The translations under genes and the position numbers were made by a program. The notes beneath the pieces were generated by a model. The model saw only the letters and a program-made list of their open reading frames with translations. It was not told the origin of the DNA and did not search any database. This document shows positions 28,001-31,897 of a stretch of DNA of 32,160 bases, one piece after another. The stretch is from positions 1 through 32,160 of the forward strand of contig PWVH01000067.1 of the NCBI GenBank assembly GCA_003563465.1, in the 5' to 3' direction. The DNA is from Coriobacteriaceae bacterium (GTDB lineage Bacteria; Actinomycetota; Coriobacteriia; Anaerosomatales; SLCP01). How positions within the stretch are numbered: the first letter of the stretch is position 1; each line of letters opens with the position of its first letter.

Positions 28001-28029
28001 TTGACCGGGCACGACTGTTGGGCTATGGT
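28001..28029 (+). promoter_or_regulatory. Probable promoter of tRNA-Ile
   Basis: TTGACC-N17-TATGGT upstream of the tRNA. Confidence 0.6.
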
Positions 28030-28052
28030 ACGGAGGCGTTTCGCCCGGACAG

Positions 28053-28129
28053 GGGCCCGTAGCTCAGTCGGTTAGAGCGCACGGCTGATAACCGTGAGGT
28101 CATTGGTTCGAATCCAATCGGGCCCACCA
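28053..28129 (+). tRNA. tRNA-Ile(GAT), CCA encoded
   Basis: GGGCCCG acceptor pairs with CGGGCCC; anticodon loop CTGATAA with GAT at 28087-28089; GGTTCGAATCC T-arm; terminal ACCA. Confidence 0.97.
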
Positions 28130-28141
28130 CTAGTAATCGAC

Positions 28142-28173
28142 AAGCCCTGCCTGGAAACGGGCGGGGCTTCTTT
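28142..28173 (+). terminator. Intrinsic terminator downstream of tRNA-Ile
   Basis: AAGCCCTGCC/GGCGGGGCTT stem followed by CTTT. Confidence 0.7.
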
Positions 28174-28242
28174 GCCGCCCTCTCTACGACGATTCCTACT
28201 CGGCAGCCCCCGCTCACGCAGACGTTCAGTAGCGGCAAGCGG

Positions 28243-28268
28243 GTTTCATCCGGATTAATCTGGGGAAT
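28243..28268 (+). promoter_or_regulatory. SigB/SigF-type promoter-like element upstream of micropeptide ORF
   Basis: GTTT (28243-28246)-N16-GGGAAT (28263-28268), close to the GTTT-N14-16-GGG(A/T)AT pattern. Confidence 0.4.
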
Positions 28269-28301
28269 ACGTTTACACAGCACTCGAAGGGAGGTGTACA
28301 G

Positions 28302-28457
28302 ATGAGTCGACTTCTCAAAGTTGTCACGTTGGCGACCTCGCTGGTAATGGCGACCGCAGCCACTGCGATGGCGAGCCCGGCCAGGGCCCATGTGGTCATC
28401 GAAGTGGCCAGGTGGCCCGAAGCCGTCAAGCAGCTCGTATTCAGACTTGTTCACTAG
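28302..28457 (+). CDS. 51-aa secreted or membrane micropeptide (absent from the ORF track)
   Basis: MSRLLKVVTLATSLVMATAATAMASPARAHVVIEVARWPEAVKQLVFRLVH*; signal-peptide-like N-terminus; GGGAGG 7 nt upstream of the ATG. Confidence 0.6.
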   Translation: MSRLLKVVTLATSLVMATAATAMASPARAHVVIEVARWPEAVKQLVFRLVH

Positions 28458-28504
28458 TGCGGCCTGATTCCGGTCTCACTGAGAGTTGCCCACTTGGAAC
28501 CACA

Positions 28505-28551
28505 GGACGTGCGCGCCCTCCCGTCAGGAAGGCGCGCACGTCCGTTCTCTG
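28505..28551. terminator. Strong intrinsic terminator downstream of micropeptide ORF
   Basis: Perfect 13-bp stem GGACGTGCGCGCC (28505-28517)/GGCGCGCACGTCC (28531-28543), then GTTCTCT. Confidence 0.8.
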
Positions 28552-28618: not shown

Positions 28619-29824
28619 TCACGGCTGCAGACCGACCTGCATCACATCGATCTGGCGATACGAGAATCCAGCCCGGCAAAGAGCGAGATAGAAGCGCCAC
28701 ATCCGCACGAAGCGTTCGTCGAAGCCGAGAGCATGCACCTGCGGCAGGGCTCGGTCGAAACGCTCCAGCCAGGCATCTAACGTCCGAGCGTAGGACTCGC
28801 CGATGAATCGCGGCGATCCAATCGCAAGCCCGGCCGACCGGGCAGCCTCCTCGAAGCGCTCAGGACTGGGCAGCATGCCGCCCGGGAATATGTAGCGCTG
28901 GGTGAAGTCCGGCCCTCTTCGGTATTCTTCGAAGCGCTCCTCCGGGATCGTTATGGTCTGCACTGCTGCAGCACCGCCTTTGCGGAGCCGGTCGCGTACG
29001 GTGCCGAAGAAGACGGGCCAGTACCTTTCGCCCACCGCTTCGAACATCTCGATGGATACGATACGGTCGTAGATTTCCGTGACGTCCCGGTAGTCTTGCA
29101 GCCGGATTTCGACACGGTCCTCGAGTCCTTCCTCGGTGACGCGCGCCACTGCCAAGTCGCGCTGCTCTTGCGAGAGGGTGACGCCGGTCACGCGGCACCC
29201 CGCCTGCTTCGCCGCGTGAATCGCGAACCCGCCCCAACCGCACCCGATCTCGAACAGGTGCGACCGGCTGTCGGGATTGGCGATCTCGAGGATGCGGTCC
29301 CACTTGAGGCGCTGGGCTGCGGCGAGGTCGTCGCAGCCGTCCTCGAAACATGCAGCCGAGTACGTCATCGTGTCGTCGAGCCAGAGCCGGTAGAAGTCGT
29401 TGCCGAGGTCGTAGTGCGCGGCGATGTTGCGCCTCGAGCCCCGGCGGTTGTTGGCGCGCAGCAGGTGGAATAGCCGGTTGGCAATCGTCACTCTGCCCCC
29501 GGCGCCCCCCATTCCGCCCGCAGCCATTCCTGCAGCCCCTAGCTCGAGCACGGCTCGAAGGTCGTGAGTGTTCCACTCGCCTGCCATGTAGGATTCGGCT
29601 AGGCCCAGCGAGCTGTCGCGGACGATTCGTTTGGCAGCGGCTGGTTCGTTCAGAGTGACTTCTGCGTGAGGCCCGGGCAGGGCCCCCGCGTACGTGCTCT
29701 TGCCGCCTTGCGGCCACGTCACCGTGAGGCTTCCAGCGGGTAACCCTCGCGAAAGCATCACGTCGATCAAGCGCTCGTGCATGGTGGACGGACCTCGTTC
29801 GTCACTCCTAGTTCGCCGTTTCAC
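28619..29824 (-). CDS. Cyclopropane-fatty-acyl-phospholipid synthase-like SAM methyltransferase
   Basis: AAHYDLGNDFYRLWLDDTMTYSAACFE; LFEIGCGWGGFAIHAAKQAGCRVTGVTLSQEQ; IVSIEMFEAVGERYW; YIFPGGMLPS. GTG at 29824 overlaps the DUF1365 stop; ATG at 29782 is an alternative. Confidence 0.95.
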   Translation of the reverse strand: MKRRTRSDERGPSTMHERLIDVMLSRGLPAGSLTVTWPQGGKSTYAGALPGPHAEVTLNEPAAAKRIVRDSSLGLAESYMAGEWNTHDLRAVLELGAAGMAAGGMGGAGGRVTIANRLFHLLRANNRRGSRRNIAAHYDLGNDFYRLWLDDTMTYSAACFEDGCDDLAAAQRLKWDRILEIANPDSRSHLFEIGCGWGGFAIHAAKQAGCRVTGVTLSQEQRDLAVARVTEEGLEDRVEIRLQDYRDVTEIYDRIVSIEMFEAVGERYWPVFFGTVRDRLRKGGAAAVQTITIPEERFEEYRRGPDFTQRYIFPGGMLPSPERFEEAARSAGLAIGSPRFIGESYARTLDAWLERFDRALPQVHALGFDERFVRMWRFYLALCRAGFSYRQIDVMQVGLQP

Positions 29825-30594
29825 CAGGTAGTCTCCTCGGCCGGTGGCTCTGTCCTCGGTACGTATCTTATACGTTTTGCGAAGAGGCGAAGCGCCTGGT
29901 AGTGGATGAAAAGCCAGGCACGGGCGGACATCGGACCGTAGCGAGCTATAGCGCGCAGCAAAGCTGCGTCGGTGAGCGGACGCGCCGTGAGAGATACCGC
30001 CGCGATGAGCAGAAGCGGGCCCTTGACGAAATCGAGGAGGCTCACGGAAAGCTGCTCGCCCGGCTCGCTGAAGCGGAACTCGTAACGAGCATCCATCTCG
30101 ATGAACGGCGAGACGTGAAACACCTTGACCATTTCGGGGGCGCTTTGCCAATCGAAGACGTCACCACCGTTGTGGAGTAGGTAGTTGTGGTGGTCGCCGA
30201 AGGTGTTCTGCACCTCGGCTAGGACCGCCCGGGGGGTTCCGTCGGCGTGGAAGCAGTACCAGAAGGAGACCGGATAGAACTTGAAGCCAAGAACACGGGG
30301 GAAGGTGAGTAACCGCACCGGGCCCCTCTCGAGATCGATTCCCGCGCGTGCGAGGGTAGCGTCTACCCACGGGCGCCATGCAGAGCCGTCGCGCGGGCCG
30401 TGATCGCGGGTCCGCAGCGTGACGAGGTTCGCGCGGTCGACCGAGAACAGCCGCAGCGACTCGTCGAGCAACTCCAGCTCGTCGAGGTCTACGTACAGAT
30501 AGTAGATGCCGTAGCGGAAGCGGTTGGCGCGCGGAATCCTGCGGTCGTGGGCGACCGTTCCGACATAGAGCCTGCTGTGCACTGACGTCGTCAT
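29821..30594 (-). CDS. DUF1365 (COG3496) family protein
   Basis: SRLYVGTVAHDRRIPRANRFRYGIYYLYVDLDEL; FPRVLGFKFYPVSFWYCFHADGTPRAVLAEVQNTFGDHHNYLL; ATG at 30594. Confidence 0.92.
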   Translation of the reverse strand: MTTSVHSRLYVGTVAHDRRIPRANRFRYGIYYLYVDLDELELLDESLRLFSVDRANLVTLRTRDHGPRDGSAWRPWVDATLARAGIDLERGPVRLLTFPRVLGFKFYPVSFWYCFHADGTPRAVLAEVQNTFGDHHNYLLHNGGDVFDWQSAPEMVKVFHVSPFIEMDARYEFRFSEPGEQLSVSLLDFVKGPLLLIAAVSLTARPLTDAALLRAIARYGPMSARAWLFIHYQALRLFAKRIRYVPRTEPPAEETTW

Positions 30595-30604
30595 CCTGCG
30601 AACC

Positions 30605-31897
30605 CTATACGACTCGCGTACGCGTCTCGTCAAGCTCGTCGCCCCAGGGAAGTCGCGCGCCCATCGCTTCGGCGACCCATACCGCCGAGAGCATACCGTC
30701 TTCGTGAAAGCCATAGCGCTGCCACGCTCCGGCGAACCAGGTGTGGCGTTCGCCTTGTATCTCGCCGAGGCGGCCCTGTGCTGCGACCGCATCCGCGGAG
30801 AAGAGCGGATGCGTATAGGACATGCGTCCGATCACGCTCGCCGGGGCGGGGTCACGCACGGGGTTGAGCGTCACAAGCAGTGGGGTTTCGACCCCCAAAG
30901 GCTGCAGCCGGTTCAGATAGTAGGTCAGCGAGAGGCCGGAGGCGACCACCTCCGCTGTCTCCGAGAAGTAGTTCCACGACGCATGTGCCCTCTTGCGTGA
31001 AGGCAGAAACGAAGTGTCCGTGTGCAGGACGATATCGTTTCGGCTCGAAGCGAATGCGCCGAGCACCGCGCGCTCGGCGTCGGTCGGGTCAGCGAGCATG
31101 GAGAGCGACTCGTCGGCGTGGGAGGCGATCACAACGGCATCGTAGCGCTCTTCACCGTCCGGCCAGCTTACGATGACACCGTCGGGGCGCCGCTCGACGC
31201 GCTCGACCGGCGACGAGACCCTGACCGTCCCCGAGATCTGACGTGCTGCGGATTCCACATAAGTGCGGGCCCCGCCCACCAGGCTTCGCCACTGCGGTTT
31301 GCCGGTTATGTGCAGCAGCCCATGGTTGTCGCAGAAGCGCAGGAAGGTCTTGGCCGGGAAATCGAGCATCTGGCCGGGCGGGGTCGACCATATCGCCGAT
31401 CCCATCGGAATCAAGTACCAGTCGGTGAACCCCTTCCCGAGCCGCTCGCGCTCGAGAAGCTCGCCGAGAGTGAGGGGGTCGACGCTTTCGTCTGCGAGCA
31501 GGCGCTCGGCCATTGTGGAGAAGCGGACGATATCGACCAACATGCGCAGGAAACCCGGGCTGATCAGATTGGTGCGCTGAGCGAAGATCGAGTCCAGGCT
31601 ATTGCCGGCCCACTCGACGCTCTCTTCGGGGCATTGAACCGAGAAAGACATGTCGCTCTCGGCATGGCTGACGCCGAGCCGCTCGAAGAAGCGGATGAGG
31701 TTGGGGTAGGTTCGCTCGTTGTAGACCATGAAACCCGTGTCGGCGGGCGCGGTCTGCCCGTCGAGCGTCACGTCGTGCGTGTGAGCATGCCCTCCGAGCC
31801 GGGCATCGGCCTCGAACAGATCGACTTCGTTGGCCGGAGAGAGCAGCCAGGCCGCCCCCAGCCCGGATATGCCCGCGCCGATCACGCCTACTTTCAC
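30605..31897 (-). CDS. FAD/NAD(P)-binding amine-oxidase-like protein (COG2907 type)
   Basis: VGVIGAGISGLGAAWLLSPANEVDLFEADARLGGHAHTHDV; DTGFMVYNERTYPNLIRFFERLGV; FAGAWQRYGFHEDGMLSAVWVAEAMG. Confidence 0.94.
   Translation of the reverse strand: MKVGVIGAGISGLGAAWLLSPANEVDLFEADARLGGHAHTHDVTLDGQTAPADTGFMVYNERTYPNLIRFFERLGVSHAESDMSFSVQCPEESVEWAGNSLDSIFAQRTNLISPGFLRMLVDIVRFSTMAERLLADESVDPLTLGELLERERLGKGFTDWYLIPMGSAIWSTPPGQMLDFPAKTFLRFCDNHGLLHITGKPQWRSLVGGARTYVESAARQISGTVRVSSPVERVERRPDGVIVSWPDGEERYDAVVIASHADESLSMLADPTDAERAVLGAFASSRNDIVLHTDTSFLPSRKRAHASWNYFSETAEVVASGLSLTYYLNRLQPLGVETPLLVTLNPVRDPAPASVIGRMSYTHPLFSADAVAAQGRLGEIQGERHTWFAGAWQRYGFHEDGMLSAVWVAEAMGARLPWGDELDETRTRVV

Follow-up and report, generated by a model that had tools for sequence, protein, structure and literature searches.

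An intergenic reading frame of 51 codons, below the usual ORF-length limits, is very probably a genuine small gene that encodes a protein. Together with a paralogue and two members in relatives, all absent from the family libraries, it forms a predicted peptide family not described before, known so far from three genomes, all within one family of uncultured Coriobacteriia. The family is new; its kind, small exported peptides, is ordinary. The reading we prefer, and consider modestly probable, is that of a lineage-restricted small gene for a Sec-exported and cleaved peptide acting at the cell envelope, perhaps under SigB-type stress, which the window genome would have gained as a stand-alone unit. 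The peptide family changes no general principle, and what it yields is a compact set of predicted exported peptides, amenable to testing, from an uncultured group of Coriobacteriia.

The reading frame and its homologues

The window, a stretch of 32,160 nucleotides, is contig 167 of a draft genome (1.8 Mb, 91% complete). On its forward strand, the predicted gene runs from an ATG at 28302 to a TAG ending at 28457 (28302..28457) and is preceded by a Shine–Dalgarno sequence GGGAGG (28289..28294), 7 nt 5′ of the start codon, and by an exact match to a putative SigB-like promoter element, GTTT-N16-GGGAAT (28243..28268). It is followed on the same strand by a hairpin (28505..28543) that, given its fold and the complementarity of its arms, is a probable transcription terminator without a U-tract. 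The arms (28505-28517 and 28531-28543) pair perfectly over 13 bp and, when extended, over 17 bp at 94%; the hairpin region folds at −36.7 kcal/mol (z −5.5 against shuffles). The first-pass annotation, made from the letters of the sequence, had described the same translation, ribosome site, promoter element and perfect hairpin, and all four were recovered as described. Its view of the gene as a self-contained unit also stands, the gene forming a compact, separate unit in the window genome. Terminators without a U-tract are common in G+C-rich actinobacteria; a strict scan for terminators with a U-tract did not call the hairpin, which lacks one. A stable hairpin also lies 3′ of each of the other three family members.

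The base composition of the frame resembles that of the adjoining genes (GC by codon position 0.63/0.47/0.71). Among 3,000 Markov sequences built from the same 380 nt, an ORF of the same type was found on either strand in one, a frequency that is indicative only, as the criteria were chosen after the ORF had been seen. An antisense ORF of 143 aa (28023-28454) spans the tRNA-Ile gene and was not accepted as a gene.

The strongest evidence for a real gene is homology. A six-frame search of the same genome identified a full-length paralogue, MRKLAGIVSVAVALVFGSVSTAFASPVAHIVLEVSKMPPCVVDLIVPLIHR, on contig C12 (42% identity, E 7.7e-7), and its whole-length alignment with the window copy scored a z of 17 against shuffles. 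Full-length members were also found in G007 (record SKKZ01000196.1, a Coriobacteriia MAG) and G008, which represent two species of one other genus in the same family; the G008 member matched a profile built without it at E 1e-8. Start, stop and length agree in all four. The G007 and G008 members share a locus, where the peptide gene comes after those for a DUF5667 protein and a secreted protein of 184 aa and faces the transketolase gene (tkt) on the opposite strand, and we consider them orthologous because of this common position. The 184-aa protein of G008 (L058:873-1427), which lies before the peptide gene and next to the DUF5667 gene, contains a tandem GKPEWA repeat and has no family match.

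The first-pass annotation had named a frame not conserved in close relatives as grounds for refutation; the gene withstood this check, and the comparison of G007 and G008 found the frame kept with a synonymous bias. Over codons 1-24, 16 codon differences are synonymous and 2 are non-synonymous, base differences are distributed 1/1/17 over the codon positions and 22 of the 24 residues are identical; by comparison, the adjoining 184-aa protein is only 41% identical between the two species. This pattern indicates that the peptide frame is translated and constrained. The known members number only four, in three genomes, so that selection on the window copy is deduced from rather distant relatives.

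One could also see in the frame what is left of a larger secreted protein, or a frame that arose by chance within a non-coding RNA unit, as it lies in a lineage-specific insert and its members are confined to one family of genomes. We hold this to be highly improbable: the synonymous bias, the independent paralogue and the agreement of the four members in start, stop and length argue for coding, the mature part is unlike the secreted 184-aa neighbor in G007 and G008, and the sole Rfam match in the window is a tRNA. A derivation of the mature part from the C terminus of that 184-aa protein was considered and rejected, its scores being no better than those of shuffles.

Export signal and mature peptide

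In motif and composition, the window precursor shows the features of Sec export: a positive N terminus (MSRLLK), a hydrophobic core (V7-A20) and an A-x-A motif (A22-M-A24). The predicted signal peptide covers residues 1-24 (28302..28373, forward strand) and ends in A-M-A, as delimited by the four-member alignment and by the synonymous bias between G007 and G008. A-[M/F]-A ends at residue 24 in 4/4 members, and the alignment has only ten invariant columns, A22 and A24 among them. Export across the cell membrane is probable, and the earlier proposal that a small gene is translated here and carries an export signal is supported by homology, codon bias and the A-x-A motif. The cleavage site suggested with it, after ARA at residue 29 and releasing a 22-residue peptide, was not upheld. 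As ARA is present in the window copy only and A22 and A24 are invariant, cleavage after A24 is the better inference, and the mature peptide here is likely to be of 27 residues, SPARAHVVIEVARWPEAVKQLVFRLVH (28374..28454, forward strand).

Under the preferred reading, the ribosome would produce a 51-residue precursor, as the start site, codon-level constraint and homology suggest, and signal peptidase I would probably cut it after A24, as the invariant A-x-A indicates, so that a hydrophobic peptide of 27 residues, with a proline at its center, would remain outside the membrane. This peptide would act at the envelope of the cell, most likely in association with the membrane, and its production may be limited to particular conditions, perhaps SigB-type stress.

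The mature parts of the window copy and the paralogue are clearly alike (z 11 against shuffles), as are those of the paralogue and the G007 copy (z 9), with a lower score between the window copy and G007 (z 3.8); the G008 mature part is an outlier among the four. The mature parts have in common AH (or PH) close to the beginning, P-x-x-V in the middle and L-[IV]-H at the C terminus, such that the residues H, P, V, L and H are conserved. The mature peptide is predicted to be hydrophobic, with amphipathic stretches and a central proline. AlphaFold placed helices at residues 2-24, 26-36 and 39-50 (paralogue numbering) at a low mean pLDDT of 66, and at this confidence the model shows little more than a tendency to form helices, interrupted close to the conserved proline. 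A search with a profile of the mature part in 298 genomes gave members at 5e-11 or below and the next match at 0.002, and a fusion of the mature domain into larger proteins was rejected.

The comparison of G007 and G008 bears on the fate of the N-terminal segment. Their first 24 residues are better kept than the rest, where the G008 copy is strongly diverged and 16 of 24 mature codons differ non-synonymously, whereas a signal peptide that is discarded is usually the less conserved part. An uncleaved form, in which the segment stays on as the one membrane span of a small protein and a short tail on the outside would modulate a membrane complex, is on this account still a candidate, though one to which we assign a rather low probability: the A-x-A at residue 24 never varies, unlike most of the segment, which differs between the paralogues, and the mature parts of the window copy, the paralogue and the G007 copy are conserved.

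The divergence of the mature part in one orthologue pair would also suit a secreted, pheromone-like signaling peptide with a receptor elsewhere in the genome, as would the size, the export signal and the existence of two paralogues. We consider such a role unlikely, however, as the peptide is hydrophobic and no receptor, transporter or processing protease was recognized beside any of the four members. Rap-Phr signaling peptides have a short precursor with an export signal, and the window peptide resembles them in this; it differs in having no adjoining Rap-type receptor gene, and nothing indicates that a short C-terminal fragment is set free. A role as a bacteriocin-like peptide, active on membranes and directed at competitors, would be in keeping with the patchy distribution, the amphipathic stretches and the altered mature part in G008 relative to G007, but appears very unlikely given a net charge at pH 7 of only +1.6 to −1.4 across the four members. 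Of the marks of class II bacteriocins, a double-glycine leader is absent from the sequences, and no immunity or dedicated exporter gene was recognized in the neighborhoods. That no receptor, immunity or processing gene was recognized beside any member speaks against dedicated bacteriocin or pheromone cassettes in general. The closest likeness is to the uncharacterized secreted or membrane small-protein families of microbiome catalogues such as GMSC, which are likewise short, without a known family and provided with an export signal; in GMSC, 15.3% of the small-protein families are predicted to be transmembrane or secreted (PMC11364881). What sets the present family apart is its paralogue, the two orthologues that share a locus, the candidate promoter and the terminator hairpin.

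The promoter element and the SigB question

The published SigB consensus is GTTTAA-N12-14-GGG(A/T)A(A/T), and the SigB-type ctc promoter of Bacillus subtilis is also read by SigB homologues of Streptomyces (PMC8346170). The window element fits this consensus, as known from the general-stress regulons of B. subtilis and Streptomyces coelicolor, and when the 120-nt upstream region was shuffled 400 times, the exact element never reappeared. The genome encodes a sigma factor of the SigB/F/G type (TIGR02980; 293 bits, curated cut-off 234), the gene for which directly follows that for an RsbW-like HATPase (anti-sigma) protein. The paralogue carries GTTT-N14-GAGTAT, with one mismatch, 47 nt before its ATG (shuffle p of about 0.01) and is divergent from a gene for a STAS anti-sigma antagonist.

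Other observations speak against SigB control. Exact matches were not enriched genome-wide over a reversed control (4 vs. 3 and, in a second count, 6 vs. 8), the 120 nt before the RsbW-like gene held no match and the element is absent upstream of the G007 and G008 peptide genes. SigB control of the peptide gene is plausible on this evidence, though we stop somewhat short of calling it probable; if true, it would provide an entry into the stress response of this uncultured Coriobacteriia group.

Two further observations were made in the same genome. On contig C137 (L158:1501-1525), an exact SigB-like element stands immediately 5′ of an ATG that has a ribosome site, and the frame that follows resembles, by eye, a small helix-turn-helix protein. 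A STAS anti-sigma antagonist gene and its flanks are duplicated at 86% DNA identity (L043:1-630 on C12 and L140:2600-3213 on C131); the copy on C131 is close to a contig end and has a stop inside the matched frame.

Locus and distribution

In the window, the gene lies between a tRNA-Ile (GAT) gene (28053..28129, forward strand), which has its own hairpin at 28142-28169, and a convergent gene of the cyclopropane synthase family (CMAS; 28619..29782, reverse strand; Pfam PF02353, 278.6 bits). The spacing between these two is 489 nt here vs. about 75-115 nt in G001, G002, G007 and G008, which implies either that this lineage gained the unit or that the others lost it. The corresponding interval of G006 contains two unrelated genes and evidently accepts inserts. 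Under the preferred reading, the window genome would have gained a stand-alone transcription unit at this position. Integration targeted to the tRNA with a duplicated tRNA end was unconvincing, as the only trace was a 15-nt match of 80% near the far side, and a phage or plasmid origin was rejected after searches of phages, plasmids and viral contigs gave no match. The relatives' contigs for the paralogue site end at tRNA genes. A broader proposal, that these are founding members of a stress-regulated exported family of extracellular signals or envelope modulators, duplicated and moved as promoter–ORF–terminator units, here beside tRNA genes, strikes us as improbable.

Neither Pfam and NCBIfam (at curated cut-offs) nor PHROGs (by significance) returned a family match for any of the four members, in agreement with the first-pass description of an unannotated gene of no recognized family. 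Searches of 66 other genomes of the order gave no further member at a convincing E-value, the better remaining matches being to the signal segment only; 395 other genomes of the phylum contained no member, and the mature part alone found no further member in 298 genomes of the class. A collection of 84,980 species was scanned twice by pattern, a method that reaches close relatives only, and the G007 record alone matched. The gene is absent from G001, G002, G003, G004 and G006, and since these five relatives are 98-100% complete, its distribution is patchy. No peptide gene was found beside tkt in G000 and the other relatives examined there.

Toward the far end of the window, ARAGORN called a tRNA-Glu (ctc) at 31796-31877, inside an amine-oxidase-like coding sequence and on the same strand; the call is probably false, as it is absent from Rfam at the gathering threshold. 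The cyclopropane synthase, DUF1365 and amine-oxidase genes of this region (28619-31897) form a cluster that is conserved across the relatives.
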